A stretch of DNA of 40,180 nucleotides from Candidatus Fiminaster equi (GTDB lineage: Bacteria; Bacillota_I; Bacilli_A; RFN20; CAG-826). The stretch spans positions 1 to 40,180 of the forward strand of contig JAGHUR010000017.1 in the NCBI GenBank assembly GCA_018064745.1. The letters are read 5' to 3'. Shown here one piece after another: positions 29,778 through 39,459 of this stretch; the first letter of the stretch is position 1; each line of letters begins with the position of its first letter. The notes under the pieces were generated by a model, which saw nothing but the letters and a program-made list of their open reading frames with translations, was not told the origin of the DNA and made no database searches. The position numbers were made by a program, and so were the translations under genes.

Positions 29778-30665
29778 TTATACGTTATACGCTGGGTCGA
29801 TTGCTTTTAATTCGTTGAAGGTGTCAATTTCGATGACATCTTCATCAAAACATGGAAGCACTCTGACCTTGTATTCGCCTCTATGAACTTGGTTAATAAC
29901 GGTCTCCCAGTATTTTTCTTTTCCGCCAGGAGCTAAGAATGTTGATTCGATATCTTTTGCAAGTCTAACTCCATCAGCATCTGAAATGTAATAGATACCA
30001 ACCATTTGATGACAATTGAGTCCGCCAATCTTTTCCTCATCAACAAATCCATCTTTGTCTACTGTTAACACCCAGTCATCAGATCTGTCTTTGTAAATAC
30101 CAAGAACATCTGATGTGTAGTGATACTTACGAATAATCTTTGGATTGGACACTAATAAGTCGGCTTCCAGGACGTATGAATTTCTAATTAAGTCCCTAGC
30201 TATGTAAGCTGAACCGATGTTATTAGCCTCATTGTATTTTGGGTTTTCTAAGAATTTGATCATTGGATATTTGTATAGAAGTTGATCAAATTGTTCGCCA
30301 AGATAACCACGGACAATGTAGATTTCTTTAATTTCTGCTTCTAAACAAGCATCGATTAGGGAATCAATGATTCTCTTACCATGAACCTTAACGAGTGGTT
30401 TTGGTGTATTAAGTGTGATTGGGACAAGTCTAGAACCAAAGCCTGCAGCAATGAATATTGCTCTTTTTACACGGTATGGTTCGAGTGCTTCAAGTCCTTT
30501 CTTTGAAATTTGTTTTCCTTCAACATAGCCAAGGTCTTGGAGTTCATTAACAACTTTGTTGATTGTTCCAAGAGAATAGCCTGTCTCTTTTTCTAAATCT
30601 CTTTGTGATTTATTACCACCTTCAAGCAGTGATAAAATGTCGAATTGTTTCTTACTAAGTGACAT
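29778..30665 (-). CDS. Winged-HTH + LicC-like nucleotidyltransferase
   Basis: A 295-aa fusion. Residues 1-60 are a MarR-like winged helix (KKQFDILSLLEGGNKSQRDLEKETGYSLGTINKVVNELQDLGYV). Residues 68-295 are a sugar-1-phosphate/choline-phosphate nucleotidyltransferase with FIAAGFGSRLVPITLNTPKPLVKVHGK, acidic EADLLV and ENPKYNEANNIGSAYIA, as in LicC. It would make CDP-choline for phosphocholine decoration of surface glycans, though another NDP-sugar is possible. An earlier in-frame ATG (30707) was rejected: ATG 30665 has AGAGGTAG upstream. This wHTH-LicC fusion is known in Firmicutes, unlike the XRE fusions nearby. Confidence 0.85.
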   Translation of the reverse strand: MSLSKKQFDILSLLEGGNKSQRDLEKETGYSLGTINKVVNELQDLGYVEGKQISKKGLEALEPYRVKRAIFIAAGFGSRLVPITLNTPKPLVKVHGKRIIDSLIDACLEAEIKEIYIVRGYLGEQFDQLLYKYPMIKFLENPKYNEANNIGSAYIARDLIRNSYVLEADLLVSNPKIIRKYHYTSDVLGIYKDRSDDWVLTVDKDGFVDEEKIGGLNCHQMVGIYYISDADGVRLAKDIESTFLAPGGKEKYWETVINQVHRGEYKVRVLPCFDEDVIEIDTFNELKAIDPAYNV

Positions 30666-30850
30666 GATTCTACCTCTTTTGTTCAAAACTGAGGTCAAGT
30701 TTATCATAAAATGAACGGATTTGCTATTAGAATTTAATAAAAGCGTTCAAATATCGAAGAAAATAGTTTAGTTTTAGAACAAATTGCATATTTTACTATA
30801 TCTTTTAATTAAATAAATGCGTATGCGAAAATATGGCAAAATATGCAACT

Positions 30851-30914: not shown

Positions 30915-32108
30915 ATGACATTAAAAGAAACTCGCAAAAATTGCAAATTAACTCAAGAAGAAGCAGCAAAAGTTGTAGGTGTTGCTCTTCGTACATATGT
31001 TTCATATGAAAAGGATGAAAAGAAAGCTGATCAATTAAAATTAACAAGAATGATTGAAATTTTAAATGAACATGCAGCAAAGGATACATCAATCCTTAAA
31101 GACAAAGTCTTATTGATTACAGGTGGTACTGGTTCATTTGGCCATGCAGTTGTAGATAGATTCTTGGAAACTGACATCAAAGAAATCAGAATTCTTTCTC
31201 GTGATGAAAAGAAACAAGATGATATGAGAAAGGCATATAACAACTCCAAACTTAAATTCTATATTGGTGATGTTCGTAACCTTCCAAGTATTATTGATGC
31301 ATTCAAAGGTGTTGACTATGTTTTCTCTGCAGCAGCACTTAAACAAGTTCCATCTTGTGAATTCTATCCAATGGAAGCAGTCAGAACTAATGTTATTGGT
31401 TCAGACAACGTTATTACAGCATGCGTTCAAAACCATGTTAAGAAAGCAATCTTCTTATCTACAGATAAAGCAGCATACCCAATTAACGCAATGGGCATTT
31501 CAAAAGCTCTTATGGAAAAGAACGTTATTGCAAGATCAAGACAACTTCTTGAAGGCGATACAGTTCTTTGTTTAACAAGATATGGTAATGTCATGGCATC
31601 TCGTGGTTCAGTTATTCCTCTATTTTTACAACAAATCAAAGATGGTAAACCAATTACAATTACAAATCCTGATATGACAAGATTTATGATGACACTTGAT
31701 GATGCTGTTGATTTAGTACTCTATGCATTTGAACATGGTGAACAAGGTGATTTGTTTGTTCAAAAAGCTCCAGCAGCCACAATTGATACACTTGCTAAAG
31801 CAGTTATCTCATTAACTGGTAGCAAGACTGGCATTTCATATATCGGAACACGTCATGGCGAAAAACTCTTTGAAACACTTGTCACTCAAGAAGAAATGCT
31901 TAAGGCTGTTGATATGGGCAACTTCTTCTGTGTCAAAGCAGATAATAGAGATCTCAACTATGATAAATATTTCTCCAAAGGAAACAAAAAGCTTAATCTT
32001 GGAGAATCATATACATCTCATAACACTGGAAGACTCGATGTTGAAGGTATGAAAAAACTTCTTAAAAAACTCGAATTATTTGGTGGTCCAGTTAGACAAC
32101 ACGAATAA
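30915..32108 (+). CDS. capE: XRE HTH fused to CapE-type UDP-GlcNAc 4,6-dehydratase/5-epimerase
   Basis: A 397-aa fusion. Residues 1-55 are XRE HTH (LTQEEAAKVVGVALRTYVSYEKDEKK). Residues 62-397 are a short-chain dehydrogenase-type sugar enzyme with NAD motif TGGTGSFG (69-76) and the atypical triad Thr183, Met193, Lys197 in STDKAAYPINAMGISK, the Met-for-Tyr replacement diagnostic of CapE/FnlA. It catalyses the first step to UDP-N-acetyl-L-fucosamine. Ordinary CapE lacks the HTH. It has a ribosome binding site and is cotranscribed with capF 20 nt downstream. Confidence 0.92.
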   Translation: MTLKETRKNCKLTQEEAAKVVGVALRTYVSYEKDEKKADQLKLTRMIEILNEHAAKDTSILKDKVLLITGGTGSFGHAVVDRFLETDIKEIRILSRDEKKQDDMRKAYNNSKLKFYIGDVRNLPSIIDAFKGVDYVFSAAALKQVPSCEFYPMEAVRTNVIGSDNVITACVQNHVKKAIFLSTDKAAYPINAMGISKALMEKNVIARSRQLLEGDTVLCLTRYGNVMASRGSVIPLFLQQIKDGKPITITNPDMTRFMMTLDDAVDLVLYAFEHGEQGDLFVQKAPAATIDTLAKAVISLTGSKTGISYIGTRHGEKLFETLVTQEEMLKAVDMGNFFCVKADNRDLNYDKYFSKGNKKLNLGESYTSHNTGRLDVEGMKKLLKKLELFGGPVRQHE

Positions 32109-32128: not shown

Positions 32129-33229
32129 ATGAAAGTTTTAGTTACTGGTTCTAATGGCTTTATTGGTAAGCACATGGTTAAGGCTTTGATCAAGTCCAAC
32201 CACGAAGTTTTGCCATACGATTTAGACAAGACAGAAAGTGACTTAATTAACTACATAAAAGAAGCTGATTTTGTCATTCATTTGGCTGGAATAAATCGTC
32301 CATTAACCGTTGAAGAATTTTATGATGGAAATACTAACTTCACAAAGAAAATAGTGGACTTTTTACGCGAAAATCGCCGTGAAATCCCAGTTATTATGTC
32401 ATCTTCCATCCAAGCTGCACTTGATAATGACTATGGCAAATCTAAGAAAATGGGAGAGGATTTTTTACTAAATTCTGGACTACCTGTTTATGTCTTCAGA
32501 TTAGCTAATGTTTTTGGTAAGTGGTGCAGACCAAATTACAACTCTGCAGCAGCAACTTTCATGTACAATATCGCTCATGATTTACCTATTGAAATCAGGG
32601 ACAGAACCTATGTTGTTCATTACAATTATGTTGAAGATATTGTTAATACTTTTTTAGGATGCGTAAATGGTGAAATTAAGCCATCTAAAAACATTCTTTC
32701 TGTTTCCCCAGCGCATGATTGTTCTCTTGGAGATCTTGCAGATAACCTCTACAGATTTAAAATGGCAGTGGAATCAGATGAACATCTTCCTGTAATTCAT
32801 AACGATTTTGAATATAAATTGTTTGTTTCATTCCTTGATTATTTAAGTGAAGATGGCTACAAATTCAATTTTGCAGCAGATCAACGTGGTTCATTCGAGG
32901 AAATCTACAAATCAAAGAAACATGGTCAGATATCAATCAACAAGTCTTTCCCAGGAATCACAAAAGGTGGACACTTCCACACATATAAGAATGAAATTTT
33001 TATGACTGTCAAAGGTGAATGTGTGACAAGACAAAGAAAAATAGGTGGCACTGAAATCCTTGAGTTCCCAACAAAAGGAATTGAATCTAAGAAAGTTGAT
33101 ATTATTCCTAATTATACGCACGACATTAAAAATGTTGGTGATGAGGAATCAATTACATTAATGTGGATCTCAGAAGTATACTCAGATGAAACTGCAGATA
33201 CATACAAAGAGGATGTAGACCTAAAATGA
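32129..33229 (+). CDS. capF: CapF-type bifunctional UDP-sugar reductase/epimerase
   Basis: A 366-aa enzyme for the second step to UDP-L-FucNAc. The N-terminal Rossmann domain has VTGSNGFIGKHM (residues 5-16) and the YGKSK active-site motif. The C-terminal cupin (about 245-366) has FPGITKGGHFHTYKNEIFMTVKGE with the zinc-binding histidines. It follows HTH-capE directly; the ribosome binding site is weak (TAGGGA). The TGA stop overlaps the next start by 4 nt. Confidence 0.93.
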   Translation: MKVLVTGSNGFIGKHMVKALIKSNHEVLPYDLDKTESDLINYIKEADFVIHLAGINRPLTVEEFYDGNTNFTKKIVDFLRENRREIPVIMSSSIQAALDNDYGKSKKMGEDFLLNSGLPVYVFRLANVFGKWCRPNYNSAAATFMYNIAHDLPIEIRDRTYVVHYNYVEDIVNTFLGCVNGEIKPSKNILSVSPAHDCSLGDLADNLYRFKMAVESDEHLPVIHNDFEYKLFVSFLDYLSEDGYKFNFAADQRGSFEEIYKSKKHGQISINKSFPGITKGGHFHTYKNEIFMTVKGECVTRQRKIGGTEILEFPTKGIESKKVDIIPNYTHDIKNVGDEESITLMWISEVYSDETADTYKEDVDLK

Positions 33230-33456
33230 GAACAGTGGAAAAAGGTGCTAAATATAAACATTTCAAAGGAAATCTCTATAAGGTAATTGAGATAGCAAAG
33301 AACACTGAAACAAATGAAATGATGGTGGTGTATCAAGCTCTATATGGAGATTATGGTATATTTGTAAGACCACTTGTAATGTTTCTATCTAAGGTAGATA
33401 AAGAAAAATATCCTGATTCAAATCAGGAATACAGATACGAAAAAGTAGAAGATTAA
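33226..33456 (+). CDS. DUF1653 family protein
   Basis: A 76-aa protein matching the DUF1653 pattern: KYKHFKGNLYKVIEIAKNTETNEMMVVYQALYGDYGIFVRPLVMFLSKV. The family is a compact beta-rich domain of unknown function often found near metabolic genes. It is translationally coupled to capF through an ATGA overlap. Confidence 0.88.
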   Translation: MRTVEKGAKYKHFKGNLYKVIEIAKNTETNEMMVVYQALYGDYGIFVRPLVMFLSKVDKEKYPDSNQEYRYEKVED

Positions 33457-33712: not shown

Positions 33713-33922
33713 ATGTTATCTACTTACTTCATTATTATGGGTATTGTTGCTGGCATTATCACTTTTGCATGGGCATTAGGCCAAATCTTTAAAGTGATCA
33801 AAACTTTCCAAGAATATGACACCTACTAGGAGAAGTTTGCTAGCATCTTAAATTTACTCGGAATTGTAACTATGGGTGTTGCAGTAGTTATCCTATTCTT
33901 TACTGTATCAGGATTACTTTAG
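33713..33922 (+). pseudogene. Two-span membrane protein split by an in-frame TAG
   Basis: ATG 33713, with AAAGGAAA upstream, encodes 38 residues (one membrane helix, then KVIKTFQEYDTY) to TAG at 33827-33829. The same frame continues with 30 more residues containing a second helix (LGIVTMGVAVVILFFTVSGLL) to TAG 33920-33922. The joined product, about 69 aa, would resemble the two-helix neighbour at 33962. A nonsense mutation is most likely. The TAG is embedded in TAGGAG, a ribosome-binding-like string, so a coupled second peptide with an unusual start is the alternative. Confidence 0.55.
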
Positions 33923-33961
33923 TAATCCATTTCAAGAAAATCCATTGAAAGGAGAAGAAAT

Positions 33962-34219
33962 ATGAGAAGACATTATGGCTTTGATTCCAAGTATTACAAA
34001 TGCATGGGATTTATGACAGTTTGTTTCATGGTTGTTGGTCTTGTTTTCTACACAATTTTCATGATCAGAACATTTGTGAATGGCACTGATTGGTTAGTTG
34101 GTATTTTGCTTGTCTTTGGTGAGCTCGCAATGCTTACACTTTTACCAGCTCTTGCTAACTCATTTATGGCACTTGGTTGTACCATTGAAAGAGATCATAT
34201 CAACGACTTAGACGACTAG
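33962..34219 (+). CDS. Small two-helix membrane protein, unknown function
   Basis: 85 aa with membrane segments at about 14-34 (CMGFMTVCFMVVGLVFYTIFM) and 44-68 (WLVGILLVFGELAMLTLLPALANSF), and an acidic end. GAAAGGAG gives a strong start. The family is not recognised. It is the last gene of the small-membrane cluster, followed by a terminator. Confidence 0.72.
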   Translation: MRRHYGFDSKYYKCMGFMTVCFMVVGLVFYTIFMIRTFVNGTDWLVGILLVFGELAMLTLLPALANSFMALGCTIERDHINDLDD

Positions 34220-34237: not shown

Positions 34238-34272
34238 AAGGATGATACTTAAAATAAGTGTCATCTTTTTAT
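34238..34272 (+). terminator. Intrinsic terminator after small membrane cluster
   Basis: AAGGATGATACTT/AAGTGTCATCTTT, 13 pairs, loop AAAAT, T-rich tail. Confidence 0.9.
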
Positions 34273-34371: not shown

Positions 34372-34401
34372 TTTGGAATAAGTAATATATTTTGGTAGAA
34401 T
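34372..34401 (+). promoter_or_regulatory. Promoter of McrB-like operon
   Basis: -35 TTTGGA (34372-34377), 18-nt spacer, -10 TAGAAT (34396-34401); TGGAGA then precedes the ATG. Confidence 0.55.
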
Positions 34402-34422: not shown

Positions 34423-36456
34423 ATGGAAACTACTAACACACCAAACTCACAACATAAAGTTGTAGCAACCAAGACAGTCATGAAAACCAAAAAAGTCCTT
34501 GTTAGCAAGGGTGTTTTCTTTTCTATCTTTGTTGTAATTTTTGCACTTGCTGCATTCTTTATGTTCTGCCTTGATAAGGAGAACTTCTTAAGAAAACAAT
34601 TTAACGCTAAATTTTTAAATTCTATTGCAGATTTCTTTAGCGGAACATTGAAGATTAACTTCGATGTCACGATGATGACATGGATTACATTCTTCTTATT
34701 TGTAATCGTCTTCTTCGCGGTATTTACAACATTCTTCTTTAAGAAGAACATCTTGCAAAAAAAAGAAGCAAAACAAATCCGTAAAAAAGGTGAACCTCTT
34801 TCTGCAAAGCAAAAAGTCACATTTAATGTAGTATATTTCATTCTTGCTGGTCTCTTAATGGCTGGTTTAATCCTACTTATTCTCCTTGTTTTAGTTCCAA
34901 ATTTACCACTTCCAGCTGCTCAAAAAAACGCATCATTTATTGGTCATAACTTGTTAACAAATACACTTCCAACTATCGGAATTGTCATGTTACTTGTTGC
35001 TATATTCCCAGCTGCATGTTTAGTTTTATTCTGCTTATTTAAAGTTATTGTCTTCTTGATTAGCTTAATTGTTTCAGGCGTTTCCAAATCAGTTATGCAA
35101 TCCGAAGAATATCAAGAATCAATGGCTGCAACACAAGCTGCAGCAGCAGATATTGCTTCTTCAATGGCAGAAGCCAAAGGCTTGTCAGGCGACGCACTTG
35201 CAAGAGCTAAAGATGCTCAAAAGAACGGACAAAAGAAAAACTCAATGGCCGGATTCAATATCTTCCCAGCTCTTGATAACATCGATAAGAAATATGAAGA
35301 AATTGAAGCTAAAAAGGCTGAAGAAGAAGCTGCTAAAGCACAAGCTGAAGCTGATAGACAAGCAGCAATTGAAAGAGGCGAAGAGGTTCCAGAAATTCCT
35401 GAACAAGAAGTTGTCGAAGAACCAAAAGAAATTACATATGAAGAATTCACACAGTTTGCATATGAGTTCCAATCATACCTTTGCCATCAAAAATATTACT
35501 TTGATCTTACAATTATTAGATCATTCATCGCAGGTCTTGCGTCTTCAAGAATGATTCTTTTACAAGGCTTATCAGGTACAGGTAAGACCACACTCCCACG
35601 TGTATTCCTTGAATACATTGGTTCAAAAGCATGGTTCTTCCCAGTCCAAGCAACATGGAGAGATAGATCAGACGTTACTGGTTATTTCTCAGAATTTGCT
35701 AACGAATTCAAAGAAACTGAGTTCTTAAAACACTTATATGAAGCTAGCTATACTCCAGACAAAGTTAACTTACTCGTTCTCGATGAAATGAATATTTCCC
35801 GTGTTGAGTACTATTTCGCTGACTTCTTATCAATCTTTGAATATCCATCAGCAGACTGGTTAGTCCCACTCATTCAAATCCACGATGACGTAGTCATGCC
35901 AAAGAAACTTGAAGGTGGTATGGCCCGTATTCCAACAAATACATGGTTCATTGGTACAGTTAACATCGATGACTCAACATTTACAATTACAGACAAGGTC
36001 TATGACCGTGTTATTGCTATTGACTTTGAAGAACTTAATATTCCATTTGAATCAGACTATCCATATGATCCACATCCATTAAAATGTGGTGAACTCGAAA
36101 AGATGTTTGCAGAATGTAGAGCGCACGAAGAAAACAAACTCTCCGATGAAGAAAAACTCAAATTCCTCAAACTCGCTGCATTTACTGCAGATACATTCGA
36201 TGTTAAGTTTGGTAACCGTATTATGAACCAAATTGAAAACTTCGTTCCTGTTTTCGTTGCCCTTGGTGGTACAAAGGAACAAGCTCTCGACTTAATGTTC
36301 GCAAATAAGATTCTCCGTAAATTAAACGGTAAATTTGAATCATACATTAAAGATGGTTTAGTTAAACTTACACGTTACCTCAATACTGAATACGGTAAAG
36401 GTGTATTCCTTAAGACTGAAAAATTAGTTAACCTCATTAGCAAGAAACTTGCATAA
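34423..36456 (+). CDS. Membrane-anchored McrB-like AAA+ ATPase
   Basis: A 677-aa protein. The N-terminal half has four hydrophobic regions, about residues 27-50, 85-110, 130-157 and 185-220. An Ala/Glu/Lys-rich coiled coil follows (about 285-330). The C-terminal half is an AAA+ domain with Walker [11 protein letters not shown] (about 381-390), Walker B NLLVLDEMN (about 449-457) and the McrB/AAA_5-type sensor motif FIGTVNIDDSTF (about 509-520). McrB normally binds GTP and drives the McrC nuclease; membrane anchoring is not the classic form. The following gene encodes a McrC-like partner 11 nt downstream. Confidence 0.82.
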   Translation: METTNTPNSQHKVVATKTVMKTKKVLVSKGVFFSIFVVIFALAAFFMFCLDKENFLRKQFNAKFLNSIADFFSGTLKINFDVTMMTWITFFLFVIVFFAVFTTFFFKKNILQKKEAKQIRKKGEPLSAKQKVTFNVVYFILAGLLMAGLILLILLVLVPNLPLPAAQKNASFIGHNLLTNTLPTIGIVMLLVAIFPAACLVLFCLFKVIVFLISLIVSGVSKSVMQSEEYQESMAATQAAAADIASSMAEAKGLSGDALARAKDAQKNGQKKNSMAGFNIFPALDNIDKKYEEIEAKKAEEEAAKAQAEADRQAAIERGEEVPEIPEQEVVEEPKEITYEEFTQFAYEFQSYLCHQKYYFDLTIIRSFIAGLASSRMILLQGLSGTGKTTLPRVFLEYIGSKAWFFPVQATWRDRSDVTGYFSEFANEFKETEFLKHLYEASYTPDKVNLLVLDEMNISRVEYYFADFLSIFEYPSADWLVPLIQIHDDVVMPKKLEGGMARIPTNTWFIGTVNIDDSTFTITDKVYDRVIAIDFEELNIPFESDYPYDPHPLKCGELEKMFAECRAHEENKLSDEEKLKFLKLAAFTADTFDVKFGNRIMNQIENFVPVFVALGGTKEQALDLMFANKILRKLNGKFESYIKDGLVKLTRYLNTEYGKGVFLKTEKLVNLISKKLA

Positions 36457-36467
36457 TCATATAGTAT

Positions 36468-37997
36468 ATGAAGACTGATATTGGCAATTACTTATCTAGC
36501 TACAATGAAAAGCTTTTAAATCAACTTGTTACCCAAGGTACTTTTGTTGAGATTGGAAAAGCATTTTCAAAGAGCTCTGCTGGAGCCCTTGCAAGTGGTT
36601 TAAAGAGCAATGCCTATGAAGAAAAAGTTGATTTCCCATGGATTGATCAACTCGATGAAGTAACCGAGAAAATCATGTCCATCGCTTCAAACCCACGTAC
36701 TCACGTACGTTTTGATAAGGAAATCCGTCTTGCAGAGCAAGCAGTTAAAGTTGATGGTAATGATATGAAAATGACCACCAAGACTTCTAAGCTTTGGAGA
36801 CTTAAAGATGAGGAATTTAAACCAGAGAAGGTTTATACAACTGTTTACGAAGCTGACTTCGCAATCTACGAAAATAGATTCTTACTCAACTTAGTTAATA
36901 AAATTAACAACTTACTTAACCACGCTATTGCAAAACTCAATGAAATGGTTAAGAGAGTCAATAAGAATTATGTTGGTCAGACGGTTTCTCTTGCATCTAT
37001 TGATGATGTTAAAGATATTGCAAACTTAGATAAGATTTCAGCACTCACACCAAAGAGTGAAGAAAACTTACTTTTAACAACATCTGATGCATCATTCCTT
37101 GATGACTGGAAGATGCTTGTCAAAGCAAAGAACAGAATTAATAACTTCTATTCAACCCCATTCTATCATTATTTAAAGGATCAAAAACCTCTTTCTGATA
37201 GTGATGTTCATATTACAAACATCTTAGCAGAAGACCGTTCTTATGCTCCATGCTATAACTTCTATTTAAGACTTATTAAAATGGACAAGGTTGAAGAAGA
37301 AAAGAAACCAGTTGATCCAATTGATTACCATAACTTTGTTATTTCTAACATTTTCTCTGTTTTAGCAGACCGAGGATTTATGGCACCATATGATGCTGGA
37401 AATAAACTTGAAATCAATGCTAACTTACTTAAATGTGAAAACTACAAAGTAGTGAAAGATGAAATGAATTGCTTCATCACAACAACTGATAAAGATCACA
37501 TTGATATTAAATTTGAATTTAACTACACAAAAACACCTCAAACAGAAGCTGATGCTATGTTTACTGGTAGAAGAGCATCCCTTGTAAGTATTGACCTTGT
37601 TTCGAAGAAAGACGAAGAATTCTTAAATGTTGAAGAATTATCAGTCCACTTTAGAAAACTCATCAACCAAAGACTTAAAAAGGATTACACTAACGCATTT
37701 GTTATTACACCAATTGATGGCACTGAGAAAGATGATGTAATCATCTGTTCACCTCATTGCTATAAGATTGATGCTAATATCACAAATATGATTAAATCAT
37801 GTCTTATCTTTGCAGAAGGTGATACTTCACTTTATGCAAAAGTTTGTCCAGTATGTGGAGCATACATGGATGGTGAACAAGAAAACGGTAACTGTTACTG
37901 TTCTAACTGTGGTTCAACCTATTCTCTTATGAGTCAAGGTACAAACGAACATAAGAATGAATTAATTTGGATCAAACGTATTAAGAATCCTGATTAA
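36468..37997 (+). CDS. DUF2357/McrC-like protein with C-terminal zinc ribbon
   Basis: A 509-aa protein. The N-terminal part resembles DUF2357 of McrC-type partners, with YEADFAIYENRFLLNLVNKI near residue 130 as the recognisable ENRF signature. The central part is alpha/beta and unassigned. Near 460-483 there is a zinc ribbon, CPVCGAYMDGEQENGNCYCSNCG, with CxxC pairs. I could not identify a convincing PD-(D/E)xK nuclease motif, so it may be a non-cutting partner of the AAA+ protein upstream or a divergent nuclease. No clear Shine-Dalgarno is present; it probably depends on coupling. Confidence 0.65.
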   Translation: MKTDIGNYLSSYNEKLLNQLVTQGTFVEIGKAFSKSSAGALASGLKSNAYEEKVDFPWIDQLDEVTEKIMSIASNPRTHVRFDKEIRLAEQAVKVDGNDMKMTTKTSKLWRLKDEEFKPEKVYTTVYEADFAIYENRFLLNLVNKINNLLNHAIAKLNEMVKRVNKNYVGQTVSLASIDDVKDIANLDKISALTPKSEENLLLTTSDASFLDDWKMLVKAKNRINNFYSTPFYHYLKDQKPLSDSDVHITNILAEDRSYAPCYNFYLRLIKMDKVEEEKKPVDPIDYHNFVISNIFSVLADRGFMAPYDAGNKLEINANLLKCENYKVVKDEMNCFITTTDKDHIDIKFEFNYTKTPQTEADAMFTGRRASLVSIDLVSKKDEEFLNVEELSVHFRKLINQRLKKDYTNAFVITPIDGTEKDDVIICSPHCYKIDANITNMIKSCLIFAEGDTSLYAKVCPVCGAYMDGEQENGNCYCSNCGSTYSLMSQGTNEHKNELIWIKRIKNPD

Positions 37998-38024: not shown

Positions 38025-38050
38025 AGACGTCCGAAAGGGCGTCTTTTATT
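38025..38050 (+). terminator. Intrinsic terminator after McrBC-like pair
   Basis: AGACGTCC/GGGCGTCT, eight pairs, GAAA tetraloop, T-rich tail. Confidence 0.87.
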
Positions 38051-38113: not shown

Positions 38114-38127
38114 TTTTGGCGTATTAT
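38099..38127 (+). promoter_or_regulatory. Leaderless promoter of HTH-capG
   Basis: -35 TTGCTT (38099-38104), 17-nt spacer, -10 TATTAT (38122-38127), then exactly 6 nt to the ATG at 38134. No Shine-Dalgarno. Confidence 0.8.
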
Positions 38128-38133
38128 TTAGGC

Positions 38134-39459
38134 ATGAATAAATTACTCGAAACTAGAAAAAACCTTGGTATAAGCCAATCTGTAGCCGCCGAAAAGCTCG
38201 GTGTCTCATTAAGAACATATCAAAGATATGAAAATGAAAATTCACTTGAGGAAGGTGAATTAAATGAACTTGTAAAATCATTAAACGAGAAATGTGCCAA
38301 TTTGTCATATAAACACTTTCAAGACAACGGAAAACTCAAACTTTTGATTATTGTAGGTACAAGACCAGAAATCATTCGTCTTGCAGCAGTCATAAATAAA
38401 TGTAGAGAATACTTTGATACTCTTCTTGCACATACAGGCCAAAACTATGATTACAACCTCAATGGTGTCTTTTTTAAAGACCTTAAGATAAAAGATCCAG
38501 ATATATACTTAAACGCTGTTGGAAAAGACCTTGGTGAAACAATGGGCAACATCATTGCAAAATCATATGAATTAATGGTGGAGATTAAACCAGATGCAGT
38601 TCTAGTACTTGGAGATACTAATTCATGTCTTTCAGTAATAGGAGCAAAACGTCTTCATATTCCAATCTTCCATATGGAAGCTGGTAATAGATGTAAAGAT
38701 GAATGCCTCCCAGAAGAAACAAATAGAAGAATTGTTGATATCATCTCTGATGTTAACTTAGCGTACTCTGAACACGCTAGAAGATATTTAGCAGATTGTG
38801 GACTTCCAAAAGAAAGAACATATGTCACTGGATCGCCAATGGCAGAAGTTCTCCATCAAAATATCAACGAGATTGAATCCAGTGACATATTGAATAAACT
38901 TTCCCTTAAAAAGGGCAAGTATATTCTTCTTTCTGCACACCGTGAGGAAAACATTGATACAGAGAAGAACTTCAATAGCTTGTTCTCCGCTATCAATAAG
39001 ATGGCAGAGATATATGATATGCCAATACTCTATTCATGCCATCCTAGATCAAGAAAAAGACTTGAAGCTACAGGATTCAAGCTTGATCCTAGAGTAGTGA
39101 TGCATGAACCATTAGGTTTCCATGACTACAACAACCTTCAAATGAATGCTTTCTGTGTTGTGTCTGACTCTGGTACTTTACCAGAGGAATCAAGCTTCTA
39201 TGCTTCTATTGGCAAACCAATCGCAGCAGTCTGTATTCGTACATCTACAGAAAGACCAGAAGCATTAGATGATGCATGCTTCGTACTCGCTGGAATAGAT
39301 GAAAAGAATCTACTCCAAGCAGTAGAAGTCGCAATCAATAATAAAGCTGGTTGTCATCCAGTAGATAATTACATTGATACAAATGTATCAGATAAAGTAG
39401 TAAAACTAATTCAATCCTATGTTGGAGTAGTAAATAAAATGGTTTGGAGAAAGGAATAA
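38134..39459 (+). CDS. capG: XRE HTH fused to CapG/FnlC-type UDP-sugar 2-epimerase
   Basis: A 441-aa fusion. Residues 1-55 are XRE HTH (ISQSVAAEKLGVSLRTYQRYENEN). Residues 68-441 are a non-hydrolysing UDP-N-acetylhexosamine 2-epimerase: IVGTRPEIIRLAAVI, GDTNSCLS, HMEAGNRCKDECLPEETNRRIVD, TGSPMAEVL, SAHREENI. The EAGNRC block fits CapG/FnlC, which makes UDP-L-FucNAc in the last step after CapE and CapF, rather than housekeeping MnaA. A TTG 18 nt upstream was rejected because it lies before and through the -10 box. Confidence 0.9.
   Translation: MNKLLETRKNLGISQSVAAEKLGVSLRTYQRYENENSLEEGELNELVKSLNEKCANLSYKHFQDNGKLKLLIIVGTRPEIIRLAAVINKCREYFDTLLAHTGQNYDYNLNGVFFKDLKIKDPDIYLNAVGKDLGETMGNIIAKSYELMVEIKPDAVLVLGDTNSCLSVIGAKRLHIPIFHMEAGNRCKDECLPEETNRRIVDIISDVNLAYSEHARRYLADCGLPKERTYVTGSPMAEVLHQNINEIESSDILNKLSLKKGKYILLSAHREENIDTEKNFNSLFSAINKMAEIYDMPILYSCHPRSRKRLEATGFKLDPRVVMHEPLGFHDYNNLQMNAFCVVSDSGTLPEESSFYASIGKPIAAVCIRTSTERPEALDDACFVLAGIDEKNLLQAVEVAINNKAGCHPVDNYIDTNVSDKVVKLIQSYVGVVNKMVWRKE

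Follow-up and report, generated by a model that had tools for sequence, protein, structure and literature searches.

A gene pair inserted in a capsule locus

The window analysed here, meaning the whole stretch of 40,180 nucleotides of Candidatus Fiminaster equi contig JAGHUR010000017.1, carries two adjacent genes on the forward strand. The first encodes a 677-aa AAA+ protein of the McrB type, with an NxD sensor loop and four transmembrane (TM) segments (34423..36456), and the second, which follows after a gap of 11 bp, encodes a partner protein of 509 aa that belongs to a DUF2357 family and ends in a zinc ribbon (36468..37997). A genus mate, G011, harbors an orthologous pair (loci L040/L042) with 90% identity in the AAA+ protein and 77% in the partner. 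The dN/dS ratios between the two genomes, 0.14 for the AAA+ gene and 0.20 for the partner gene, reflect purifying selection, which indicates that both are real genes. A terminator-like hairpin is found upstream of the pair (34238..34268, +), and a promoter-like site with an extended -10 (TTGGAA-17-TAGAAT; 34373..34401, +) ends 21 bp before the AAA+ start, though this is a consensus match only, and shuffled sequence yields such matches at least as often as the DNA around the pair does.

The pair forms part of an insert between capF and capG that starts at the capF stop codon, overlapped by the first inserted gene (a 76-aa DUF1653 protein; 33226..33456, +), and extends to a terminator-like hairpin downstream of the partner gene (38025..38044, +). 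This hairpin resembles one that the genus mates L082 and L084 have directly downstream of capF; in both, capE-capF-capG is uninterrupted and lacks the pair. Among the 24 genomes of the genus searched, only that of the window and G011 carry the pair, which is thus accessory. Its neighbours are capE, capF, capG, the DUF1653 gene and genes for small TM proteins; neither a HEPN or other nuclease gene nor any defence gene lies next to it, and no SipW, TasA-like or ABC-transporter genes were found beside it. One of the small proteins, of 85 aa with two TM segments (33962..34219, +) and 52% identical in G011, does not accompany the other orphan pairs and is therefore probably not a core part of the system.

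Another small TM protein gene of the insert (33714-33930) has an in-frame TAG about 38 codons from its ATG, and its G011 homolog (L042, 10094-10303) reads through to yield 69 aa. In three genes for sugar or nucleotidyltransferase enzymes, capE, capG and an NTP_transferase gene (30915-32108, 38116-39459 and 29778-30707), an N-terminal helix-turn-helix is fused to the catalytic domain, and the N-termini of capE and capG are conserved in G011. The start of capG (38116-38140) is listed as a TTG but probably lies at the ATG in position 38134: genus mates conserve the element GTCGTATTATTTxGxCATG, which suggests a start with almost no leader.

The AAA+ protein

The N-terminal part of the AAA+ protein is a membrane domain (residues about 30-225; 34510..35097, +) with four segments near residues 31-49, 88-106, 140-158 and 187-224, in agreement with the preliminary description. 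These were called by hydropathy in the G011 ortholog, which aligns to the window protein without gaps in this region, using simple in-house scripts of the kind also used for clustering sequences. Counts of Lys and Arg in the N-terminus and the successive loops (6, 5, 10 and 1) favour an N-in/C-in topology, which would place the AAA domain in the cytoplasm. Pfam detects no DNA-binding (reader) domain at the N-terminus, where none had been apparent in the preliminary description either; the four TM segments stand there instead. The membrane part has a dN/dS of 0.17 between the window and G011, and the linker rich in Ala, Glu and Lys that follows it (residues 226-345; 35098..35457, +) is the least constrained stretch of the gene (0.23).

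In the AAA+ core (residues 346-677; 35458..36453, +; dN/dS 0.07), the motor residues are intact, with Walker A at 382-389 (GLSGTGKT), Walker B at D454/E455 followed by N457 (LVLDEMN), the sensor loop N514-x-D516-D517 (GTVNIDDS) and a finger arginine at R529. G385, K388, D454, E455, N457, N514, D516 and R529 are invariant in all 65 AAA+ sequences compared. GTVNIDDS had been called a McrB-type motif; it is indeed present, but its type is NxD (N514-x-D516-D/E) and not the NxxD of classical McrB. Likewise, R529 is a single arginine where McrB has two. N457 corresponds to Asn282 of Escherichia coli McrB, through which McrC binding is relayed (PMC6624300, PMC7680126).

Matches of the AAA+ protein to Pfam families were weak (AAA_16, AAA_5). 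Since alignment-based profile searches of the PDB gave nothing useful, the structural evidence is carried by a single-sequence search, in which the best matches of the core, and the sole convincing solved relatives, were E. coli McrB chains (1e-5 to 3e-5). Profile comparison of the core favoured McrB (95%, score 77) over MoxR (90%, score 57). In an unrooted tree the NxxD McrB, MoxR and NxD groups separate, and the window protein lies inside the NxD group (branch support 94/89). Searching plasmids by tblastn, we moreover found the AAA+ core in proteins whose annotation includes EVE and DUF3578. Both of these are N-terminal domains of McrB. EVE has also been reported as a domain of another McrB-family protein (PMC10602043), and the NxD branch has been described by Bell et al. 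2024 under the names CoCoNuT and CoCoPALM (PMC11090510). Judged by these sequence comparisons, the AAA+ core is a member of the McrB family, in its NxD branch, rather than of MoxR. The choice between these two families had been named beforehand as decisive for reading the locus as McrBC-like, together with the family of the partner, to which we now turn.

The partner protein

The partner can be divided into a DUF2357-like helical region (residues 1-300; 36468..37367, +) with conserved Y134-E135-N136, T250-N251 and Y259, a middle region (residues 301-455; 37368..37832, +) at the site where McrC carries its PD-(D/E)xK nuclease, and a C4 zinc ribbon (C460, C463, C478 and C481; 37833..37994, +). 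Taken alone, the window partner has no significant match to DUF2357 or any other family. However, 14 of 34 close members of its family match PF09823 (DUF2357), at best with 3e-13 and in several cases above Pfam's cut-off. Using the G011 ortholog as query, 465 residues could be aligned to a DUF2357-matching relative from G143 at 29% identity (3e-26). Furthermore, the partner profile matches proteins of Deinococcus and Pseudanabaena plasmids that NCBI annotates as DUF2357 (50 and 45 bits), and the genes of these adjoin NxD AAA genes. Through these family members, the window partner is assigned to a DUF2357 family. DUF2357 is the N-terminal domain of McrC that activates McrB (PMC11090510). As such, both halves of the McrBC-like pair proposed in the preliminary description, a McrB-family core and a DUF2357-like partner, are borne out.

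The zinc ribbon, likewise noticed earlier, has its four cysteines invariant in 34/34 partner relatives and is the most constrained stretch of the partner (dN/dS 0.07). The middle region, conversely, keeps no acidic or lysine residue and no catalytic residue across the same 34 relatives, consistent with the earlier remark that no PD-(D/E)xK nuclease is apparent. An inactive PD-(D/E)xK fold is possible, as in the partners of CoCoNuT Type II systems. When the partner profile was compared to that of genuine McrC (PF10117), no significant match emerged, and homology to the McrC nuclease is therefore not claimed. AlphaFold models of both proteins, predicted from three sequences, were too poor for use (mean pLDDT 36.5 and 45.1).

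In one relative of the clade discussed below, G079 (L153, 9540-12737), the partner reaches 1065 aa through a C-terminal fusion to an acetyltransferase that looks to be of the GNAT type, plus further domains.

Relatives and their gene contexts

A survey of the order found AAA+ relatives of this membrane-linked family in 152/223 genomes, and in all 23 of the first loci the AAA+ and partner genes are adjacent. The relatives form three groups, with one TM segment, with four TM segments and zinc-ribbon partners, and with eight or more. The 1-TM group matches CoCoPALM and is adjoined by SipW-like, EAL and secreted proteins. Its operons (L048-L059) combine EAL-domain proteins, a PNP_UDP_1 phosphorylase, a SipW-like peptidase and secreted proteins, and the EAL-domain neighbours suggest a link to c-di-GMP.

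A search for conserved neighbours, as had been suggested from the sequence, found them around the 4-TM pairs. In 45 of these, hand-picked from the survey matches with the best first, so that the fractions apply to this selection rather than to the order at large, the locus contains a SipW-type signal peptidase (38/45), TasA/CalY-like exported proteins (36/45), an ABC ATPase (37/45), an ABC permease (36/45) and a large secreted protein (35/45). The SipW identity rests on TIGR02228 (signal peptidase I of NCBIfam), above cut-off in one representative and below it in others. The exported proteins match no family model; their TasA-like label is inferred from their length and a GFASW signal-peptide motif, which a simple pattern recovers in 42 of the 82 proteins that make up three clusters.

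The 8+-TM proteins and their DUF2357-like partners constitute a separate, stand-alone two-gene clade in 11/218 genomes, without conserved neighbours (L061/L256-L265, L266-L274). Beside one of them (L061) we noticed the BREX genes PglZ and BrxL, a potential link to defence that was dropped as they are absent from the eight other 8-TM loci read. Soluble NxD relatives occur on plasmids, with helicases beside them.

The window pair itself falls into a small clade of five members (the window, G011, G079 at L153, G180 at L145 and the Clostridia contig L041), supported by 98/97 and 100/98 in the trees. The SipW operon is absent from all five, and none of the conserved neighbours of the 4-TM pairs stands by them. 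Instead, four of the five pairs adjoin genes for nucleotide sugars or polysaccharides: capF/capG twice, a WbpM-like gene (L145) and galE (L153), the latter two named from reading the sequence, not from a family search. The L041 contig ends within the partner gene and covers the upstream side only. Neither 395 genomes of the class nor 392 of the phylum yielded a further pair of the window type.

Discussion

Our preferred reading, to which we give a probability of about 0.5, is that the pair is a nuclease-free, membrane-tethered McrB-type (NxD) motor acting at the cell envelope. The conserved, intact motor and the DUF2357 neighbour that always accompanies it imply a ring driven by NTP, which would be switched by the partner. 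Like McrB, the AAA+ protein would assemble as a hexamer; its four helices would fix it in the membrane, with the motor domain on the cytoplasmic side. The partner would dock on this ring and, through its helical region, trigger NTP hydrolysis in the manner of the N-terminal domain of McrC. The membrane anchor and the missing nuclease residues in turn imply that whatever the motor works on is located at the membrane; a client or adaptor would likely be contacted by the zinc ribbon, which would take the place of the nuclease. The NTP-driven work would thus be applied to envelope components. What these could be is suggested by gene context. In most relatives they would be TasA-like surface proteins processed by SipW, which the motor would help to export or assemble alongside the ABC transporter; for the window clade, something tied to the surface polysaccharide of the surrounding genes is more likely. 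It should be noted, however, that this latter link may just reflect that capsule loci gather insertions. Such reuse at the envelope has a precedent in Staphylococcus aureus, where the McrB protein PcdA has been recruited to cell division (PMC10602043). Tentatively, and with the odds somewhat against it, one may extend the reading to a whole McrBC-type branch that lost its nuclease function and became membrane motors which export or assemble fibres of the cell surface and, in the case of the window clade, surface glycans.

How does the pair compare to systems already known? CoCoPALM, the membrane-linked NxD McrBC systems found near signal peptidases (PMC11090510), come close, having a NxD McrB-like GTPase with a membrane-spanning N-terminus and an adjacent DUF2357 protein. 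The published systems, however, bear coiled coils on both proteins and a TM/coiled-coil domain resembling FtsB, where the window pair has four TM segments and a zinc-ribbon partner. The close relatives of the window pair furthermore add an ABC transporter and TasA-like proteins, and the pair itself lacks the adjacent signal peptidase that most related pairs have. The preliminary description had considered a new system; the broader class already has its name in CoCoPALM, but the variant with four TM segments and a zinc ribbon differs from it. CnuB and CnuC of CoCoNuT Type II (PMC11090510) share the NxD motif and a DUF2357 partner that carries a zinc ribbon and whose nuclease is inactive or missing, whereas the window pair is anchored in the membrane and neither helicase, HEPN and TerY-P genes nor long coiled-coil ones adjoin it. 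With the McrBC of E. coli and Thermococcus gammatolerans, the pair has in common an AAA core with the McrB-type Walker B-N motif and an adjacent activator gene; it differs in its NxD loop, its one finger arginine, the lack of a DNA-binding domain and the lack of a PD-(D/E)xK signature in the partner. PcdA is alike in being a McrB-family protein outside restriction, within envelope and division machinery, but it has EVE domains and degraded Walker motifs, no McrC partner, and no membrane domain described (PMC10602043).

The main rival is a membrane-linked antiphage system, in which the ring would sense infection through the partner or its zinc ribbon, and the membrane part (24 helices in the case of a hexamer) would act as an abortive-infection effector or block the entry of DNA. 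Its McrBC ancestry, the compact two-gene unit at a variable locus in 2 of 24 genus members, the fast divergence of the partner compared to capE (77% vs 99% identity to G011) and the plasmid-borne soluble NxD relatives beside helicases all fit such a role, as does the independent 8+-TM clade, which has no conserved neighbours, as would be expected of a self-contained system. Moreover, the PADLOC candidate PDC-M26A matches the window AAA+ protein at 3.4e-39. This profile, however, matches the SipW-linked relatives as well, and therefore does not discriminate in favour of defence; the PDC-M26 partner profile has no match in the pair, and no description of PDC-M26 was found in the literature searched. 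Against this rival, too, the close 4-TM relatives sit inside long, conserved surface-protein operons, the window pair has no adjoining defence genes, and no relative in a viral contig could be confirmed, matches to phage records being two in number and both partial. Such a wide spread throughout the order, combined with no confirmed viral-contig relative, is unlike a typical mobile defence gene. We consider an antiphage role the less likely reading, though a serious one, and the defence or stress system of the preliminary description is not the best-supported half of its functional suggestion: with close relatives mostly in SipW/TasA-like/ABC-transporter operons and the window copy in a capsule locus, the remodelling ATPase that it offered as alternative fits better.

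A restriction system in the style of classical McrBC, whose nuclease diverged past recognition, is improbable. A helix-strands-helix order in the middle region of the partner, from the crude, low-confidence AlphaFold model, and a lone Asp (V-S-I-D) in this region of the L153 and window partners hint at such a fold, and CoCoNuT Type II partners do retain an inactive PD-(D/E)xK fold ahead of their zinc ribbon (PMC11090510). Yet the lack of conserved acidic or lysine residues, the membrane domain standing where a DNA-binding domain would be, and the non-significant comparison with PF10117 all speak against it. Lastly, a MoxR-like chaperone pair for a membrane enzyme is highly improbable: AAA proteins do remodel beside membrane proteins and AAA_5-type folds are related, but there is neither an AAA_3/MoxR match in the AAA+ protein nor a VWA partner at the locus, MoxR was not found in the six searched genomes of the order (including the incomplete window genome, at about 80%), and McrB is preferred both in the tree and by the profiles.

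Restriction is the role for which motors of the McrB family of AAA+ proteins are mainly known. If the envelope motor reading is true, the nuclease-free and widespread branch linked to SipW and TasA-like export shows how a defence motor can turn into an envelope machine, and profile-based defence catalogues, by models such as PDC-M26A, may list envelope systems among the antiphage ones. With its motor residues and zinc ribbon invariant, the pair lends itself to a direct test of the envelope idea via point mutation.

Elsewhere in the window genome (L170, 14066-16625; G000 contig C50), a SipW-like gene is preceded by genes for two small exported proteins and has no AAA+/partner pair next to it. 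A four-gene cluster with a NxD McrB-like member was also seen on L254 (MT835511.1, an unverified phage scaffold from human faeces), encoding a 1049-aa P-loop protein, a 535-aa protein, an AAA protein with GTANQDES and a 689-aa protein; the scaffold may be a bacterial contig that was binned wrongly, or the system may be carried by a phage.
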